DNA of 64,000 nucleotides, taken from positions 124,001 through 188,000 of the forward strand of contig NZ_OBDO01000004.1 of NCBI RefSeq assembly GCF_900215145.1, given 5' to 3'. The DNA is from Geodermatophilus sabuli. GTDB lineage: Bacteria > Actinomycetota > Actinomycetes > Mycobacteriales > Geodermatophilaceae. Shown piece after piece: positions 4,540-57,147 of the stretch. A model generated the notes under the pieces. It did no database searches. It saw only the letters and a program-made list of their open reading frames with translations, and was not told where the DNA came from. Both the position numbers and the translations under genes were made by a program. Each line of letters starts with the position of its first letter. Position 1 is the stretch's first letter.

Positions 4540-5493
4540 TCAGATCTTGCGGAGCAGGACGCGGCGGACCTTGTGGTCGGCGGCCTTCTGCAGCACCAGG
4601 CGGGCTCGCGAGCGGGTGGGCACGATGTTGCTGCGCAGGTTGGGGCCGTTGACCGCGGCCCAGATGCCGAGCGCGGTGTCCCGGGCCTGCGCGTCGGTCA
4701 GGCCGGCGAACCGGTGGAAGTAGGCCGAGCTGTCCTGGAACGCCGTCCGCCGCAGGGCCAGGAAGCGCTCGACGTACCAGCCCTGGATGTCGGTCTCCGC
4801 CGCGTCGACGTAGACCGAGTAGTCGAAGTAGTCCGACAGGAAGACCTCCGCGGTGCTGCCGTCGGCCCGCCGCCCGGCCTGGAGCACGTTGAGGCCCTCG
4901 ATGACGAGGATGTCCGGACCGTCCACGACCTGCGCGGCCCCGGGGACGATGTCGTAGGCCTGGTGGTCGTACAGCGGGGCGCTGACGGCGCCGCGGCCGG
5001 ACTTCACCGCGGCGAGGAACCGCAGCAGCCCCCGCCGGTCGTAGCTCTCCGGGAAGCCCTTGCGGCCCAGCAGCCCCCGCGCCTCCAGTTCCGCGTTGGG
5101 CAGCAGGAACCCGTCGGTGGTCACCAGGTCCACCCGGGGTGCGCTGGGGCCGGCCGCCAGCAGGGTCTGCAGCAGCCGGGCGGTGGTGCTCTTGCCGACG
5201 GCGACGCTGCCGGCGACGGCGATGACGTAGGGCACCTTGGCCGTGGCGTCGCCGAGGAACTCGCTGCGGGCCGCCCACAGCCGCCGGCTGGCCTCCACGT
5301 GCAGGTCGAGCAGCCGGGCCAGGGACAGGTAGACCGTCGAGACCTCGTCGAGGTCGATCCGGTCGCCGAGGGAGGCCAGCGCCCGCAGCTGTCCCTCGTC
5401 CAGCGGCAGCGTCGCGCCTGCGGCGAGCGCCCGCCACGAGTCGCGGTCGAAGACCGCGTAGGGCGAGACCTGAGGTCGTGTGCCTGCCGTCAC
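4540..5493 (-). CDS. coaA: Type I pantothenate kinase
   Basis: Phosphorylates pantothenate, the first committed step of coenzyme A synthesis. It has 317 residues, normal for bacterial CoaA. It shows the P-loop GSVAVGKST (Lys101), the early FDRDSW and [16 protein letters not shown] segments, [32 protein letters not shown] (in parts: [18 protein letters not shown]) and the C-terminal [15 protein letters not shown]. The start is GTG at 5493. It stands alone, flanked by about 190 bases without genes on its downstream side (4347-4539), where I see no further feature. Confidence 0.96.
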
Positions 5494-14726: not shown

Positions 14727-14972
14727 ATGGCGCAGACGGTGAACGTCCACGAGGCGAAGACACACCTGTCCCGCCTGCTCGAGGCGGTCGAGCAGGGGGA
14801 GGAGGTCGTCATCGCCCGGGCGGGCAAGCCGGTGGCCCGCCTCGTCCCCGTCGCGGTGCGCCGCGAACCCCGGGTCCCCGGCACCTGGCGAGGGCGGGTC
14901 TTCATCGCCGACGACTTCGACGAGACACCGGAGAGCGTGCTGGCCGCCTTCCGGGGCGAGAGCGGCTCGTGA
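14727..14972 (+). CDS. Type II antitoxin, Phd/YefM (VapB-like)
   Basis: 81 residues. N-terminal MAQTVNVHEAKTHLSRLLEAV is the Phd/YefM dimerisation and DNA-binding domain, followed by GEEVVIARAGKPVARLVPV. The C-terminal tail, FIADDFDETPESVLAAFRG, is the expected toxin-wrapping segment. It overlaps the toxin start by four bases (GTGA), as is normal for translationally coupled pairs, and probably represses its own promoter. The pair sits just beside the dif-like site. Confidence 0.93.
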   Translation: MAQTVNVHEAKTHLSRLLEAVEQGEEVVIARAGKPVARLVPVAVRREPRVPGTWRGRVFIADDFDETPESVLAAFRGESGS

Positions 14973-15343
14973 CGCTGCTGCTCGACACGCACGTCCTGCT
15001 GTGGTGGCTCGGTGAGGACGATCGGCTGACCCCGACGATGCGGGAGGCGATCGCGGATCCGGGCGCGGCGGTGGCGGTGTCCGCCGCGTCGGCGTGGGAG
15101 ATGTCGATCAAGGCTGCCCTTGGCAAGCTCACGGCGCCGGAGGACCTGGTCGCGGAACTGGCGCATCACGGCTTCGACCCGCTGCCGGTCACCGTCGAGG
15201 ACGGGCTGGCCGCCGGCGCGCTCCCACGTCACCACGACGACCCCTTCGACCGGATGCTCATCGCCCAGGCCCGCCGGCGCCGGCTGGTGCTGGTCACCGC
15301 GGACCGGCGCTTCGCCGACTACGACGTCCTGACGCTGGCGTAG
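14969..15343 (+). CDS. Type II toxin, PIN-domain ribonuclease (VapC-like)
   Basis: 124 residues. The PIN acidic residues are visible as D6 (LLLDTHVLLWW), E44 (SAWEMSIK), D94 (DPFDRMLIAQA) and D112 (TADRRFADY). It is expected to be a Mg-dependent RNase neutralised by the upstream antitoxin. The start GTG overlaps the antitoxin stop. It ends 52 bases before the dif-like sequence, where mobile modules often accumulate. Confidence 0.93.
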   Translation: MTLLLDTHVLLWWLGEDDRLTPTMREAIADPGAAVAVSAASAWEMSIKAALGKLTAPEDLVAELAHHGFDPLPVTVEDGLAAGALPRHHDDPFDRMLIAQARRRRLVLVTADRRFADYDVLTLA

Positions 15344-15395
15344 CCGGTCGGGGAGGGTGGCGCGACAGCGGCAACCGGCGCTCCTGATCCTCGCT

Positions 15396-15423
15396 AGTTG
15401 ACATAATGTACATTATCGGCGGT
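15396..15423 (-). other. dif: dif-like XerC/XerD recombination site
   Basis: Read on the minus strand: left arm ACCGCCGATAA, central hexamer TGTACA, right arm TTATGTCAACT (11+6+11). The E. coli site is GGTGCGCATAA-TGTATA-TTATGTTAAAT (from memory), so the inner arms and the XerD-side TTATGT are the same. The palindromic core ATAATGTACATTAT is very AT-rich in a GC-rich region. The location in a gene-free stretch, and the bias of genes to its right toward the minus strand, fit a terminus. XerCD would resolve chromosome dimers here, activated by FtsK. Confidence 0.85.
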
Positions 15424-15768: not shown

Positions 15769-16011
15769 ATGCAACTCCGACGCCCGATCGCCGCACTGAT
15801 GACCGCCCTGGCGCTCTTCGGTGGCGGCGCGACGATGACCGCCTGTGAGGCCGCCGGGCAGGATCAGAACGACGGCACCACCGACAGCGGGGACCAGCCC
15901 GACGAGAACACCAACGAGGAGTCCGACCAGTCGCAGGACAACGTGCCCGACCTCACCGACCCGGAGGACGGCGTCGAGCAGGGCGAGGGCAACGAGGAGG
16001 ACGACGGCTGA
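15769..16011 (+). CDS. Small acidic secreted or lipid-anchored protein
   Basis: 80 residues. The basic N-terminus MQLRRP and hydrophobic segment ALMTALALFGGGATMTA precede Cys26, suggesting a signal peptide; the lipobox (TMTAC) is non-canonical, so lipidation is uncertain. The mature part is almost entirely Asp/Glu/Gln/Asn/Thr (SGDQPDENTNEESDQ), with no domain. A leaderless promoter and the 19-base palindrome lie upstream, linking its regulation to the toxin-antitoxin operon across dif. The function is unknown. Confidence 0.65.
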   Translation: MQLRRPIAALMTALALFGGGATMTACEAAGQDQNDGTTDSGDQPDENTNEESDQSQDNVPDLTDPEDGVEQGEGNEEDDG

Positions 16012-16018
16012 CGCGGGA

Positions 16019-16441
16019 TCAGCCGGCGGCGCGCTCGGAGACCCAGAGCCGGTCGAGCCGGCCGGTGGAGCGCACGAGATCGGCCAGGGACCGCTCCAGC
16101 TCGGCCTTGGTGGGGCGCTCGGTCAGCAGCGTCTGGACGTCCTCGAGGGCGCAGCGCAGCTGGTACAGCCGGTCCTGCAGGCCGTCCAGCTCCGCGCGGG
16201 TGACCAGGACGACGTCACCGGACAGGCCGGCCTTGGCCGTCGCCGACCGCTGCTCGTAGGCCCGCTGGCGGCACGCCTGCCCGCAGTACTGCCGCGGTCG
16301 CCCGACCGAACCCTGCTGCGGGAGCACCCGGCGGCACCACCCGCAGCGGCGCTCGGCTCCGCTCCCCTGCCGGGGGCTGGGGAGCCCGGTGCCGGTCGTC
16401 GCCTCCTCGTCGGTCACCTGGGTGGTGTGCTGCTTGGCCAC
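16019..16441 (-). CDS. Zinc-ribbon plus helical protein of unknown function
   Basis: 140 residues from GTG 16441. The central part has CGWCRRVLPQ...YCGQACRQRAYEQR, a Cys4-type zinc site (CxxC ... CxxxC) like those in short actinobacterial zinc-finger proteins. The C-terminal half (ELDGLQDRLYQLRCALEDVQTLL) is helical and could be a coiled coil. No enzyme motif. Seven bases separate its stop from that of the convergent lipoprotein gene; it is divergent from the MalY-like gene. The upstream start is not certain. Confidence 0.7.
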   Translation of the reverse strand: MAKQHTTQVTDEEATTGTGLPSPRQGSGAERRCGWCRRVLPQQGSVGRPRQYCGQACRQRAYEQRSATAKAGLSGDVVLVTRAELDGLQDRLYQLRCALEDVQTLLTERPTKAELERSLADLVRSTGRLDRLWVSERAAG

Positions 16442-16522: not shown

Positions 16523-17731
16523 GTGCCCCAGGAACCGGCGGCGGGGTTCGACGCCCTGACCGAAGAGGCGCTGCGCGCCGCGGGCGGGTTGAAGTGGACC
16601 CGCTACGGGACCGCGATCGGGGCGTTCGTCGCGGAGATGGACTTCGGCACCGCGCCGGAGGTCAGTCGGGTGCTGCACGAGGCCGTCGACCGGGGCGCCC
16701 TGGGCTACCTGACCGCGGAGGCGGCGTCGGCGATGGCCCGGGCCTGCGCGGGCTGGTACCGCGACCGCTACGGCTGGGCGCCGCCGCCGGAGTGGATCAC
16801 GCCGCTGTCCGACGTCGTCGCCGGGCTGCAGGCCGCGATCGAGTACTTCACCCCGCCCGGGAGCGCCGTCGTCCTGCCCACGCCGGCGTACATGCCGTTC
16901 CTGACCGTGCCCGGGCTGCTCGGCCGCGAGCTGATCGAGGTGCCCATGGTGGAGCGGGACGGCCGGGCCACCTACGACCTCGACGGCATCGCTCGCGCCT
17001 TCGCCGCCGGCGGGGCGCTGCTGGTGCACACCAACCCGCACAACCCGCTGGGGCGGGTCTTCGACGTCGAGGAGCAGCTGGCCCTGGCCGACGTCGTCGA
17101 GCGCGCCGGCGTCCGCGTGTTCGCCGACGAGATCCACGCGCCCCTGGTGTACCCGGAGGCGGCCCACCGCCCCTACGCGGGGCTCTCCCCCGTCACCGCC
17201 CGGCACACCGTCACCGCGACGTCGGCGTCCAAGGCGTGGAACCTGCCCGGCCTCAAGGCCGCCCAGCTGCTGCTGTCCGACGAGGCCGACGCCGAGCATT
17301 GGGCGCGGGTCGGCTTCCTCCCCGTGCACGGGGCCTCGACCCTCGGCGTCCTCGCCGCCACGGCCGCCTACACCGAGGGGCGGCCGTGGCTGGACGACGT
17401 CCTGGCCTACCTCGACGGCAACCGGCGGCGGCTGGGGCACCTGCTGGCCGAGCACCTGCCGCGGGTGCGGTGGAGCCCGCCGCAGGGCACCTACCTGGCC
17501 TGGCTGGACTGCCGCGCCCTGGGCCTGCCCGGGTCGCCCGGCGCGTTCTTCCTCGAGCGCGCCGGGGTCGCGCTCGTGGACGGCCCCGAGTGCGGAGCGC
17601 CCGGGGCGGGACACGTCCGGCTCAACCTGGCCACCCCGCGGCCGGTGCTGGAGCGGATCGTCGAGCGGATGGCCGCCGCGGTCGCCGGTCGGGTGGACGG
17701 GGCGGGCGGGGCCGGTGGAGCGAGGCCCTGA
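16523..17731 (+). CDS. MalY/PatB-family PLP-dependent C-S lyase/aminotransferase
   Basis: 402 residues, fold-type I PLP enzyme. MalY/PatB features: FVAEMDFGTAPEV near residue 32, TPAYMPFL, the HTNPHNPLGRVF segment, DEIHAPLVYP, and the PLP lysine in TSASKAWNLPGLKAA. The C-terminus carries HVRLNLATP. Such enzymes act as cystathionine beta-lyase or cysteine-S-conjugate lyase. The start is GTG 16523 after GAGGGAGGAG. It is followed by the GDPD gene after 34 bases, but that gene has its own -10. Confidence 0.9.
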   Translation: MPQEPAAGFDALTEEALRAAGGLKWTRYGTAIGAFVAEMDFGTAPEVSRVLHEAVDRGALGYLTAEAASAMARACAGWYRDRYGWAPPPEWITPLSDVVAGLQAAIEYFTPPGSAVVLPTPAYMPFLTVPGLLGRELIEVPMVERDGRATYDLDGIARAFAAGGALLVHTNPHNPLGRVFDVEEQLALADVVERAGVRVFADEIHAPLVYPEAAHRPYAGLSPVTARHTVTATSASKAWNLPGLKAAQLLLSDEADAEHWARVGFLPVHGASTLGVLAATAAYTEGRPWLDDVLAYLDGNRRRLGHLLAEHLPRVRWSPPQGTYLAWLDCRALGLPGSPGAFFLERAGVALVDGPECGAPGAGHVRLNLATPRPVLERIVERMAAAVAGRVDGAGGAGGARP

Positions 17732-46105: not shown

Positions 46106-46158
46106 GCAGGGGCCTGACGCGGGCCTGCGAGGGGTGGGGGGCAGGGGACCCTCTCTCA
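46106..46158 (+). repeat. Intergenic repeat abutting the tatC stop (copy B)
   Basis: Second member of the CAGGGGCC...CTCTCTCAG family (see 42109). It includes the 12-base palindrome CCCCTGCAGGGG at its left edge (46101-46112) and lies at the disturbed 5' end of the lipid kinase gene. Confidence 0.65.
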
Positions 46159-47112
46159 GCGGGAGGAGCGGACCGCGGGGCCGTCGACCGGCGCGTCGTC
46201 CTCGCGGCGGAGGTCATCGACCGGGCCGGGGTCGAGGTCCGAGGGCGTGGCGTCCAGCGGGGATGCCTCGTCGTCGGACAGGTCGTGGAAGTGCTCCGTG
46301 GCCGCCCGCTTGGCCCGGCGCCGGTCGACGACCCGGGCGATCTGGATGGCCAGCTCGAACAGCACGATCATCGGCCCGGCCATCAGGAGCATCGTGAACG
46401 GGTCCTGGGTGGGGGTGACGAACGCGGCGAAGACCACGGTGAGGAAGAAGATCCACCGGCGGCTCTTGCGCAGCACCTCGTAGCTGAGGACGCCGACCAG
46501 GTTGAGCGCGATGGCCAGCAGCGGCACCTCGAAGCTCACCCCGAAGGCCACCAGCAGCGAGAGCACGAAGCCGATGTAGTCCTGCGCGGTGAGGGCGACC
46601 ACCACGCCGTCCCCGGCGAGGCTCAGCAGCAGCTCCAGGCCGGCCGACAGGGAGATGTAGGCCAGCACCGCGCCGAGGGCGAACAGGATCGTCGACACGG
46701 CGACGAAGCCGACCCCGTAACGCTTCTCGTTGCGCTTGAGCCCCGGGGTGATGAAGGCCCACAGCTGGTAGAGCCAGAACGGGGCCGACAGCACCGCCCC
46801 GACCAGCAGGCTCACCTTCAGCCGGATGAACACGCCGCCGAACACGTCGGTGATCAGCAGGCCGCAGGCGCCGTCGGCGTCGCCGTAGCGCAGCTCACCG
46901 GGCAGGCCGCAGTAGGGCGCCCGGATGAAGTCGCCGAGGCCGTGCGCGTACCACCAGAAGGCGAACCCCGCGGCCAGGACGAGCGCCAGCAGCGCCTTGG
47001 CGACGCGGTTGCGCAGCTCGGTGAGGTGCGCGATCAGCGTCATCGTCGCCGCGGCGTCGCGCGGTGGACGGCGTCGCCGCATCCGGGGCCGTCGGAGACC
47101 GTCGTCGCTCAT
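46156..47112 (-). CDS. tatC: Sec-independent protein translocase TatC
   Basis: 318 residues. MTLIAHLTELRNRVAKALLAL is the conserved N-terminal HLxELRxR signature, then six membrane helices including PFWLYQLWAFITPGLKRNEK and FGVSFEVPLLAIAL. With TatA (47136) it exports folded twin-arginine proteins. The C-terminal ~50 residues are an acidic tail. The gene order helY-dgk-tatC-tatA-pafC-pafB is the conserved actinobacterial one. Confidence 0.96.
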   Translation of the reverse strand: MSDDGLRRPRMRRRRPPRDAAATMTLIAHLTELRNRVAKALLALVLAAGFAFWWYAHGLGDFIRAPYCGLPGELRYGDADGACGLLITDVFGGVFIRLKVSLLVGAVLSAPFWLYQLWAFITPGLKRNEKRYGVGFVAVSTILFALGAVLAYISLSAGLELLLSLAGDGVVVALTAQDYIGFVLSLLVAFGVSFEVPLLAIALNLVGVLSYEVLRKSRRWIFFLTVVFAAFVTPTQDPFTMLLMAGPMIVLFELAIQIARVVDRRRAKRAATEHFHDLSDDEASPLDATPSDLDPGPVDDLRREDDAPVDGPAVRSSR

Positions 47113-47135: not shown

Positions 47136-47456
47136 TCAGCGGGTGCTGTCGGCCGGGCCGGACTGCTGGGCGGCGCGCGCCCGCAGCTCGGCGGCCCGCG
47201 CCTCCGCGGCCCGGGCCTCGGCCTCCAGCGCGGCGCGTTCGGCGTCGGCCGGCGGGAGGACCTCACCGCGGACGGGGGTGGTCTTGGCGGCGTCCTTGGT
47301 GCGGACGTCGTCGTCCTTCATGCCCTTCATCTCGCCCTTGAAGATGCGCAGCGAGCGGCCGAGCGACCGCGAGGCGTCAGGCAGCTTCTTGTAGCCGAAG
47401 AGCAGCAGGATGGCCAGGATGATCAGGCCGATCTCCAGCGGGCCGAGTCCGGCCAT
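47136..47456 (-). CDS. tatA: Twin-arginine translocase subunit TatA
   Basis: 106 residues from ATG 47456: one N-terminal helix LEIGLIILAILLLFGYKKLPDASRSLGRSLRIFKGEMKGM (parts: LIILAILLLFG, KKLPDASRSLG), the amphipathic helix with the FG hinge, and a charged tail rich in Ala/Glu/Arg (EAEARAAEARAAELRA). It forms the translocation pore with TatC, 23 bases downstream. Confidence 0.95.
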   Translation of the reverse strand: MAGLGPLEIGLIILAILLLFGYKKLPDASRSLGRSLRIFKGEMKGMKDDDVRTKDAAKTTPVRGEVLPPADAERAALEAEARAAEARAAELRARAAQQSGPADSTR

Positions 47457-52732: not shown

Positions 52733-53596
52733 TCAGTTCGTCGGGGCCTGTCCCCCGCTGCCGGCGGTGCCGCCGGTGTCGGGGGCCGCCGGGTCGCCGA
52801 GCCCGGCCGGCGCGCCGGGCTGCGGCGTGCTGGGGGCGTGGGAGGCGGTGTGCGGCTCCTCGACGGTCTCGGCGGCGGCGGCGTCGCCCCGGTCCAGCAG
52901 GGTGTGCAGGGCGGCGCCCACCACGCGCCGGAACGCCCGCTTGGGCCGGCGCCGGTCGAGGACGGCGACCTCCAGCTGCTCGGCGGACAGCAGGCTCGGC
53001 CCGCCGTTGCCGCTGGTGGTGGCCGGGCTGACCGCCGACAGCGCCCGCACCCCCACCTGGAGCGCCTCGGCGAGGGGCAGGCCGGGGAGGAAGTGCTCGC
53101 GCAGGTGGGTGCTGACCGCCTCCGCCTGGCCGCCCATGACGACGAAGTCGGGCTCGTCGACGACCGAGCCGTCGAAGGTGAGCCGGAACAGCTGGTCGGA
53201 CTCGGGGGTGTCGCCGACCTCGGCGACGCACAGCTCGACCTCGTAGGGCTTGGTCTGCATGGTGAAGATCTCGCCGAGGGTCTGCGCGTAGGCGTTGGCG
53301 ATCACCCGGCCGGTGACGTCACGGCGGTTGTAGGAGTAGCCGCGGACGTCGGCCAGCCGCACCCCGGCGACCCGGAGGCTCTCGAACTCGCTGTAGCGGC
53401 CGACGGCGGCGAAGCCGATGCGGTCGTAGAGCTCGCCGACCTTGTGCAGCGTGGAGCTGGGGTTCTCGGCGATGAACAGCACGCCGTCGGCGTAGGTGAC
53501 GACGGCGACGCTGCGGCCGCGGGAGATGCCCTTGCGGGCGTACTCCGAGCGGTCGCGCATCAGCTGCTCGGGCGAGGCGTAGTACGGCATGGTCAT
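52733..53596 (-). CDS. prcA: Proteasome subunit alpha
   Basis: 287 residues: [45 protein letters not shown] (parts: [22 protein letters not shown]) is the alpha-subunit gate and N-helix; no catalytic Thr. [21 protein letters not shown] follows. A Pro/Gly-rich tail ends the protein. It forms the outer rings of the 20S core that dock Arc/Mpa. ATG 53596 lies four bases after the prcB stop; ATG 53590 is possible. Confidence 0.96.
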
Positions 53597-53600
53597 GGGA

Positions 53601-54443
53601 TCAGCCCTGCCCGTCCGCGGCGGACCGCTCGTCGGTGATGCGCTTCGCGATGGCGGAGACCTCGTCGTCGGGGAGCCGCACGGTGCCCTCGGCGTCCACC
53701 CGGTAGACGATCGGGTACAGCCGGCGCACCGGGTCCGGCCCGCCGGTCGCGGAGTCGTCGTCGGCGGCGTCGTAGAGCGCCTCGACGATGGTGCGGGTGG
53801 CGGCGTCCCCGCCCAGGCCCGGCCGCCAGGTCTTCTTCAGCGAGTTGCGGGCGAACAGGGAGCCGGAGCCGACTGCGGAGTACCCCCGCTCCTCGTAGTT
53901 CCCGCCCGTGACGTCATAGCTGAAGATGCGGCCCGGGCTGGTGCCGGGGGCGGCGTCGAGGTCGTAGCCGGCGAACAGCGGGACGACCGCGAGCCCCTGC
54001 AGCGCCGCGCCGAGGTTGCCGCGGATCATCTGGGCCAGGCGGTTGGCCTTGCCGTCGAGGGAGAGCGTGAGGCCCTCGATCTTCTCGTAGTGCTCCAGCT
54101 CCACCTGGTAGAGCTTCACCATCTCGATGGCGATGCCCGCGGCGCCGGCGATGCCGATGACCGACCAGGCGTCGGCCGGGTAGACCTTCTCGATGTCCCG
54201 GCTGGAGATCAGGTTGCCCATGGTGGCGCGCCGGTCGCCGCCCATGAGGACGCCGCCGTCGTAGGTCACCGCGACGATCGTGGTGCCGTGCGGCGTGATG
54301 TCCCCGACCGGCAGCTGCGGGATCGGCCGGCGCCCGGGCAGCAGGTCCGGCGCGGTGACCGCGAGGAAGTCGGTGAACGAGGAACCCACCCGGTCCAGGT
54401 AGGCGGCCGTGAACCCGTTCCGGCCGGGTGACGACCCGTTCAC
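53601..54443 (-). CDS. prcB: Proteasome subunit beta
   Basis: About 280 residues from GTG 54443. A propeptide of about 53 residues ([19 protein letters not shown]) ends at PHG, and the mature chain starts [21 protein letters not shown], where the first Thr is the catalytic nucleophile. Asp in GGDRRAT and Lys-equivalent follow. An earlier in-frame GTG at 54542 would overlap the endonuclease gene by 26 bases; propeptide length favours 54443, but I cannot exclude it. Confidence 0.93.
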
Positions 54444-54516
54444 GCGCTCGCCCCGCTCCTGCTCGGCGCCCGCGTGCCCGGCGTTGCTGCGTTCCTGGGT
54501 GAGCTCGCGAGCTCCC

Positions 54517-55278
54517 TCACGTATCCGCCTCTCCCGCCGCACCCTGGCGGCGCTCCCCGCTCGTGTGACGCCCCGTCGACCGCGGGGTGCGCGGTCGTCC
54601 AGGGCGTCGCTGCGACCCTACCGGCGGGCTCCCCGGCCGGCTGGCCTCACCCGGGCCGTTGCCGGCCGACTCCTCGAGCAGCCCCATGGCCTGGCGCTGT
54701 CGATGTCCTTCGACGTAGAAGGCGGCCATCCGGAGCAGGAACGGGTCGTCCCGGAACTGACCCAGGCCGCCGTTGCAGTTGAAGCACAGCAGCGCGCGAA
54801 CGGCGCCGGTCCCGTGGTCGTGGTCGACGTGCAAGGCCGGGGCAGAGCGGCAGATGGCACACAACCCGCCCTGGGCCTCGAGCATCGCGTCGGCGTCCTC
54901 GGCACTGATCCCGTACCGCCGCTTGAGGTGGTAAGTGCGCGATCCGCCGACTTTGGCCTTGGACTCCCTGCCTCGCACGTTGTGGCAGGGCTTGCAGTAC
55001 GTGTACGTCCCACTCGGACTCGCACGAGACCTGGGAAAGTCAGTCACGGGCTTGACCACAGCGCAGTCTGGGCACCACTTGAAGCCATCCGGCACCTCGC
55101 GGTCCCCGGGGTGGCGACGAGTCGGGAGCCCGACCCGTCGCACCTTCGACTCCCTCAGACGCTGACGCGCATGGTCGCGACAGTAGGCGGCGAGTCCTTC
55201 ACGACGGCTCTTGTCCCTCGTGAAGGACTCGACCGGACGAGTCTCACGGCAATCGGGGCAGAACTTGCCTGCAACCAT
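54517..55278 (-). CDS. Endonuclease VII-like protein inside the proteasome operon
   Basis: 253 residues. Two N-terminal zinc-ribbon repeats ([13 protein letters not shown]...YCRDH and [15 protein letters not shown]...YCKPC), then a T4 endonuclease VII-type domain: [35 protein letters not shown] (parts: [21 protein letters not shown]) with the HxDHDH catalytic and CxxC metal residues. T4 endoVII cuts branched DNA. Streptomyces also has such a gene between pup and prcB (from memory). The gene is clearly less GC-rich than its neighbours. Its link to proteolysis is unexplained. Confidence 0.88.
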
Positions 55279-55314
55279 TCCCGGAATGCACTACGAATAC
55301 GTAGCGGCGAATGG

Positions 55315-55524
55315 TCACTGGCCCCCTTTTTGCACATATGAGCGCACGAATTCCTCGGCGTTCTCCTCGAGTACCTCGTCGATCTCGTCGAGGATGGAGT
55401 CGACGTCCTCGGTCATCTCCTTGTGGCGCTCGGCGACCTCGGTGTCGACGGAGGCCTCGACCTCCTCGGCCTCCTCCCGGGTGCGGGTGGCCTTCTGCTG
55501 TCCGCCGGTGTCCCTCGTGGCCAT
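55315..55524 (-). CDS. pup: Prokaryotic ubiquitin-like protein Pup
   Basis: 69 residues, intrinsically disordered and acidic (EEAEEVEASVDTEVAERH), with the conserved C-terminal VDSILDEIDEVLEENAEEFVRSYVQKGGQ (parts: LDEIDEVLEENAEEFVR, YVQKGGQ). It ends in Gln, so Dop must deamidate it before PafA can use it. GGAGG precedes the ATG. It sits between dop and the endonuclease gene. Confidence 0.97.
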   Translation of the reverse strand: MATRDTGGQQKATRTREEAEEVEASVDTEVAERHKEMTEDVDSILDEIDEVLEENAEEFVRSYVQKGGQ

Positions 55525-55641
55525 GGCTGCCTCCAGGTCGTGTCGTGGCTGGTGCCTGAGACGAAAACTACCCGTGGCGGGTGACGAACGGGTGTCGGCG
55601 AGCGGGCCCGGGGACCGCCCCGCGCCTGTGGACCCCGCCGA

Positions 55642-57147
55642 TCAGCCGCCGGTGATCGTGTCGACCAGCTCCTGCGCCGAGGACGTCGACTCGAAGAGCC
55701 GGCCGACGTGCTCGCGGGTGCCGCGCAGCGGCTCCATGGTGGGGATCCGCACCAGGTTCTCCCGGCCCAGGTCGAACACCACCGAGTCCCACGACGCCGC
55801 GGCCACCTGCGCCGGGTAGCGCCGCAGGCACTCGCCCCGGAAGAACGCGCGGGTGTCGGTCGGCGGGTGCACCACCGCCCGGGCGACGTCCTCGTCGGTG
55901 AGCAGCCGCTCGATCGCCCCCCGCGCCACCAGCCGGTGGTAGAGGCCCTTGTCCGGCCGGACGTCGGAGTACTGCAGGTCGACCAGGCGCAGCCGGGAGT
56001 CCCCCCACTCCAGGCCGTCGCGCGACCGGTAGCCCTCCAGCAGGCGCAGCTTGGCCGGCCAGTCCAGCCGGTCGGCGCAGCGCATCGGGTCGATCCGGAG
56101 GTCCTGCAGCACCTCGGCCCACCGGCGCAGCACGTCGGCGGTCTGCTCGTCGCCGTTCCCCGTGCGGTCGACGTGCCGCTGCGCCATCTCCAGGTACGCC
56201 TCCTGGACCTCCAGCGCCGTCATCCGGCGCCCGTCGCGCAGCCGGATCTTGTGCGACAGCGTCGGGTCGTGGCTGACCGCCTGCAGGGCGTCCACCGGCT
56301 CGTCGATGCTGAGGTCCTGGGTGAGGGTGCGCGCCTCGATCATGGCCAGCACGAGCGACGTCGTCCCGACCTTGAGGTAGGTGGACAGCTCGGCGAGGTT
56401 GGCGTCGCCGATGATCACGTGCAGCCGGCGGTACTTGTCGGCGTCGGCGTGCGGCTCGTCGCGGGTGTTGATGATCGGCCGCTTGAGCGTCGTCTCCAGG
56501 CCCACCTCGACCTCGAAGAAGTCGGCGCGCTGGGACAGCTGGAAGCCGCGGGTGCGGCTCTCGGTGCCGATGCCCACCCGCCCGGAGCCGGCGAAGACCT
56601 GCCGGGTCACGAAGAACGGGATCAGGCCGCGGATGATCTCCAGGAAGGGCGTCCGGCGGTCCATGAGGTAGTTCTCGTGGGACCCGTAGGAGGCGCCCTT
56701 GCCGTCGGTGTTGTTCTTGTACAGCTGGATCGGCACGGTGCCGGGCACCCGCGCGGCCCGGCGCGCCGCCTCGGCCATCACCTGCTCCCCCGCCTTGTCC
56801 CAGAGGACGACGTCACGCGGGTTGGTGACCTCCGGCGTCGAGTACTCGGGGTGGGCGTGGTCGACGTACAGCCGCGCCCCGTTGGTGAGGATGACGTTGG
56901 CCATCCCGGAGTCGTCGTCGAGGTCGTTGTGGTCCAGCGCCTGGGCCGGTGACAGGTCGAAGCCCCGGGCGTCGCGCAGCGGGGACTCCTCCTCGAAGTC
57001 CCACCGGGGCCGGCGCGGGGCCGGCGCCTCGGCCACCGCCCAGGCGTTGACCACCTGGCTGGACAGGGTGGTCGGGTTCGCCGTCGGCTGCCCGGGCACC
57101 GAGATGCCGTACTCGACCTCGGTGCCCATGACCCGCCGCACGCTCAT
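55642..57147 (-). CDS. dop: Depupylase/deamidase of Pup
   Basis: 501 residues, PafA homologue. [67 protein letters not shown] (parts: [18 protein letters not shown]), [18 protein letters not shown]. The Dop-specific insertion ([19 protein letters not shown]) near residue 45 distinguishes it from PafA. It converts Pup-Gln to Pup-Glu and removes Pup from substrates. Leaderless start: minus-strand TAGGGT (57154-57159), six bases, ATG. Confidence 0.96.

Follow-up and report, generated by a model that had tools for sequence, protein, structure and literature searches.

The motor protein FtsK of E. coli is steered by KOPS, a G-rich polar word (GGGNAGGG). The accessible part of PMC3025954 predicts an XerCD/dif site for each of 66 single-chromosome actinobacteria and also argues that replication termination takes place near dif and not at it. 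In Corynebacterium aurimucosum the dif site was found with the help of the octamers G(A/T/C)GGGGGA and (T/C)GGGGGAG, whose distribution is 856 leading to 61 lagging; these data come from the available sections of PMC2830990, which cite Hendrickson and Lawrence (2006). The definition of such architecture imparting sequences given in the accessible text of PMC5993296 requires that their density rises towards dif.

The 28 bases at positions 15396-15423 of the window, the whole stretch of 64,000 nucleotides of Geodermatophilus sabuli DNA analysed here, are organized like the actinobacterial XerCD/dif sites. They have the length of 28 bp and the 11+6+11 layout, are present in a single copy in the genome and lie near the terminus, while XerD, an XerC-like recombinase and FtsK are encoded by the same genome. 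With a probability of about 97%, we regard them as the chromosomal dif site of this actinobacterium, which by analogy to E. coli would act in dimer resolution by FtsK and XerCD. The site and the terminus are genuine and ordinary, and the preliminary description that proposed both was right, in part for weak reasons.

The plus strand of the window at 15396-15423 reads AGTTGACATAATGTACATTATCGGCGGT, namely AGTTGACATAA-TGTACA-TTATCGGCGGT in the order XerD arm to XerC arm. The site is thus oriented on the minus strand, where it runs canonically from the XerC arm through the centre to the XerD arm: ACCGCCGATAA TGTACA TTATGTCAACT. The XerD-side arm (15396-15406; AGTTGACATAA on the plus strand) and the XerC-side arm (15413-15423; TTATCGGCGGT on the plus strand) were delimited from the conserved columns and flank the self-complementary central hexamer TGTACA (15407-15412). 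The 28 bases and their 11+6+11 layout are found exactly where they had been announced. The arm names, as well as the scoring, follow the actinobacterial dif consensus. The 28-mer agrees with it at 25 of 28 positions, and the runners-up in the window score 18 (an overlapping register) and 17 (the next separate site).

Comparison of the 26 sites of the same genus shows that columns 4-25 are almost invariant, save for the central column 15, and that conservation drops off in the flanks. The XerD-side TTATGT (ACATAA on the plus strand, columns 6-11), described beforehand as near-invariant, is invariant in all 26. Column 15 is A in the window's genome alone and G in 23 of the 26 sites; ordinary sequence variation of this kind, which gives the centre TGTACA, is all that distinguishes the site from other actinobacterial dif sites. 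The TGTACA centre is found in 26 of 119 dif sites from named genomes that share the core (among the matches listed). Since the named-genome sites were found through the 20-base core, only their outer columns are informative. In the 112 of these 119 listed sites that could be used (seven lie too near the end of their locus), conservation past the 28 bp is weak and concerns two bases on the left and one on the right, with no column beyond exceeding 0.25 bits.

Beyond the XerD arm, at a distance of about 6-21 bases (equivalent to 15375-15390), many members of the genus have a weak GGAG...CTCC-like pattern, which can hardly be made out in the sequence of the window itself. The 112 sites from named genomes show no signal there that exceeds the reporting level, and the pattern was for this reason rejected as a part of dif.

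The 20-base core of the site (GACATAATGTNNATTATCGG) was searched for in the complete set of contigs of the window's own assembly (5,517,094 bases in 25 contigs, 100% complete). It matches a single place, even when up to three mismatches are tolerated, as anticipated for a true dif, while a reversed-pattern control gives no match in the same assembly. The core is present exactly once in each of 26/26 genomes of the genus, own included, when up to three mismatches are allowed; with up to two, 107 of the 112 family genomes have one match or more. A second match is found in three family genomes: an exact one in G059, which is 76% complete and split in about 440 contigs, and one at two mismatches in each of G080 and G104. 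The five family genomes lacking the core within two mismatches are G063, G072, G073, G081 and G107, three of which are more than 90% complete. G107 is a 99% complete family member assembled in a single contig (C1), and it carries pup; because it is a single contig, its dif either diverged beyond two mismatches or was lost.

Of the 295 genomes in a class-wide draw, 259 contain the core when up to three mismatches are allowed. Under these conditions a number of them have two to five matches and some have matches to the reversed control, so that the draw supports presence of the site and not its single copy. A single genus (f18, g33) accounts for 26 of the 36 misses, the core being absent from 26 of its 32 genomes; we suspect that these are Streptomyces with linear chromosomes. 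The scan of named genomes found at least 119 stretches with the core. All of the 80 titles listed were recognized as actinobacteria but one, the exception being 'UNVERIFIED_ORG: Bacillus sp. AZ43'.

The own genome codes for a XerD above the curated cut-off (335 bits) and for one FtsK-gamma domain. A second full-length Xer match, which reaches 255 bits with the XerD model, is taken for XerC, an assignment made via the XerD model; thirteen weaker matches to that model were also found. The XerD proteins of the relatives G008 and G022 lie slightly below the curated cut-off. By analogy to the E. coli system, an odd number of crossovers would leave the sister chromosomes joined as a dimer. FtsK at the septum would then be steered along each chromosome arm by the heptamer GGGGGAG to the point where the two polarities converge. 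There it would meet XerC and XerD bound to dif, leading to XerD activation, recombination and splitting of the dimer.

The heptamer emerged when the 6-, 7- and 8-mers that occur 20 times or more were ranked by their leading-strand bias in 420 kb of G009, a member of the genus whose chromosome is a single contig and whose arms were defined by its own dif and dnaA. GGGGGAG is the top 7-mer (113 leading, 19 lagging). It was then applied to the 419 kb contig that holds the window, with a free change point. The best change point of the 148 copies lies between -601 and +1789 of dif, an interval of 2.4 kb (likelihood ratio, LR, 148.9), while the maximum LR in 1000 shuffles was 18.0. The interval is bordered by the last copy before dif, on the plus strand at 14795-14801 (offset -601), which points at dif from the left, and by the first copy after it, on the minus strand at 17185-17191 (CTCCCCC on the plus strand, offset +1789), which points at dif from the right. 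The switch of the polar word in an interval that contains dif is a sharper test of the terminus claim than GC skew, and it bears the claim out.

On the whole contig 142 copies of GGGGGAG are leading and six lagging. The bias is equal in genes transcribed head-on (47:1) and co-directionally (59:2) and is also present in intergenic DNA (36:3), from which it follows that gene strand does not explain it. The convergence on dif extends to relatives: in 20 kb around the site of 20 genomes the counts are 129:5 on the left and 4:102 on the right, and 12 of the 20 loci are split perfectly. A further word, TGGGGGAG, was counted in four genomes and its places were obtained for two. In G004, where dif is at 167,006, the word passes from one strand to the other between 150,458 and 176,885, a single copy disagreeing (among the matches listed). 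In G008 its plus-strand copies are dense from 1,327,618 and dnaA is at 1,322,185 (among the matches listed, for one strand).

The polar word GGGGGAG is not new. It is contained in the octamers of C. aurimucosum and resembles the architecture imparting sequences of that species, as presented in the available sections of PMC2830990, in being a leading-strand word that converges on dif; it had been ranked from G009 before the comparison with these octamers. It may differ from architecture imparting sequences as defined in the accessible text of PMC5993296, for the G009 samples give no sign of an increase in density towards dif. In the 20 samples, which cover about 8% of the chromosome, the ten nearer dif have 49:12 copies and the ten farther 54:7. 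The word is unbiased in the two samples nearest dif (1:3 and 3:2) and in one at 947 kb (2:4).

GGGGGAG is also, like KOPS, a G-rich polar word, and a role in guiding FtsK would be the counterpart of the E. coli one. The difference is that KOPS itself is weakly polar on this contig: GGGNAGGG has 22 plus and 21 minus copies in the first 140 kb (seven bins of 20 kb) and 23 and 43, respectively, in the fourteen bins that follow. The E. coli-type word was rejected as a polar marker on these grounds.

The place of dif opposite to dnaA was assessed in three of the four single-contig members of the genus (the fourth, G004, was left out), the own assembly having dnaA on another contig than dif. The spacing between the two amounts to 53.0% of the chromosome in G009, 48.1% in G022 and 48.8% in G008. 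Together with the uniqueness of the core, its single copy in the 26 genomes and the switch of the 7-mer, this position supports the proposal that the window comprises dif and the terminus region.

Two other indicators put forward for the terminus fared less well. GC skew had been expected to invert at dif. It is near zero on both sides of the site in the window, and on the 419 kb contig, analysed in 20 kb bins, there is no clean inversion and the cumulative skew has a shallow maximum at about 200 kb; dif is at 139 kb, about 60 kb further left. Nor was a clear inversion seen in the 20 samples of G009. GC skew was rejected as too weak for placing the terminus in the window, the contig and these samples. 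The excess of minus-strand genes to the right of dif, counted earlier as 34:14, is confirmed for the window by our own gene caller (32 minus, 14 plus) but does not hold as an argument for the terminus because it is local. The contig has 69 plus and 65 minus genes to the left of dif and 89 plus and 124 minus to the right; a split at dif is not significant on the contig (LR 3.1) and the best one lies elsewhere (LR 13.5). Gene-strand bias was consequently discarded for placing the terminus as well.

The skew maximum allows for a different reading, in which the site is a true dif, replication forks usually meet at another place, such as about 60 kb to its right, and what dif and the polar word indicate is the polarity of segregation. 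The argument for termination near dif in the accessible part of PMC3025954 goes in the same direction. Against it, the skew is weak and noisy, the displacement amounts to about 1% of the chromosome, and the sharper marker GGGGGAG switches at dif, even if this switch possibly reflects FtsK steering and not replication. We give this possibility somewhat less than an even chance.

The site is located in a gap that is bordered on the left by a PhdYefM-PIN toxin-antitoxin pair (14727-15343, Pfam matches), which ends 52 bases from dif, and on the right by a small reading frame (at 15799) that has no Pfam match. The left side of dif is variable among relatives; the PIN gene adjoins dif in 8 of 20. 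This frequency led to rejection of the toxin-antitoxin pair as a fresh insertion, the arrangement being common within the genus. On the right, all 20 relatives have three genes next to dif, namely one at 16019, one that is GDPD-like and one that is MFS-like (named by our own reading).

An integrated element is expected to leave two sites. The proximity of the toxin-antitoxin pair, the changing gene content to the left of dif and the occurrence of the dif core on 11 stretches of viral contigs could indicate an attachment site of a phage or of another Xer-using element instead of the chromosomal dif. This origin is very improbable given that the copy is the sole one in the assembly, that the three right-hand marker genes stay beside it in all 20 relatives and that the polarity of GGGGGAG switches at this point. 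A use of dif as an integration site in the own genome was rejected since there is no second copy. Even less credible is a chance A+T-rich imperfect palindrome in a genome of 75% G+C, such as a regulator operator between genes, which would fit the imperfectly palindromic sequence and its location within the lowest-G+C stretch of the window but not one copy in each of 26 genomes of the genus, near-invariant while its flanks diverge, nor its detection, with up to three mismatches allowed, in 259 of the 295 class genomes.

Some of the viral sequences with the core have features of their own. L175 and L183, two metagenomic contigs from IMG/VR, carry the exact dif core at 4708-4727 and 108-127, respectively, and share 971 bases around it at 100% identity. 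Pfam matches of the Zot type and of the G2P type of Rep proteins are found in L183, while L175 has a sub-threshold Rep_1 match alone and a zot-like frame without Pfam match. In both contigs the genes converge on dif from the two sides by our own reading. Together these features suggest that L175 and L183 are Xer-using filamentous phages of an actinobacterium. The phage contigs L176 (core at 29-48) and L180 (core at 870-889) code for similar large terminases, and their dif core precedes the terminase reading frame by about 57 bases.

The chromosomal dif site of G. sabuli has the proteasome and Tat loci in its vicinity, which the preliminary description had placed within 50 kb of the terminus. 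At a distance of about 31-40 kb, Pfam matches identify TatC (46156-47043), TatA (47136-47456), a proteasome subunit (52733-53596) and Pup (55315-55524), the pup/proteasome locus spanning 52733-57147 of the window. Pup lies on the same side of dif and in the same orientation in 82 of 82 family genomes, at 26.0-47.4 kb (median 35.6 kb). These 82, out of 112 family genomes, are the ones with pup and dif on one contig, a condition that favours nearness in fragmented assemblies; they include all 11 single-contig genomes with a dif match. It is pup alone that was placed, not the rest of the locus.

Outside the family, 52 genomes were chosen by hand among the matches listed class-wide, with preference for large contigs and taking the dif match with fewest mismatches. 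Pup is present in 39 of them, and all 13 without it belong to one family (f32). The two are on one contig in 34 of the 39, which represent 12 families, and side and orientation are the same as in G. sabuli in 33 of these. The distance in the 33 concordant genomes ranges from 21 to 941 kb, with 26 of them within 150 kb. In the exception, G362, pup is 27 kb from dif on the opposite side. A literature search, limited in coverage and wording, found no published link between proteasome and terminus. The proteasome locus might be kept on a fixed side and orientation of dif throughout the class by selection on its position, beyond a merely slow decay of gene order, with late replication, low copy number or a polarity that forbids inversions as conceivable causes. 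We consider such selection unlikely.

The GGGGGAG switch fixes the terminus of the G. sabuli genome to an interval of 2.4 kb without the need for a closed assembly. In this high-G+C group with weak GC skew, the polar word marks the terminus far better than skew and gene strand do. The constant association of pup with dif in the compared genomes provides in addition an inexpensive landmark, and one may ask why the proteasome locus stays near the terminus. If selection on its position were real, the terminus region of actinobacteria would be a constrained block, with the locus held at tens to a few hundred kilobases from dif.
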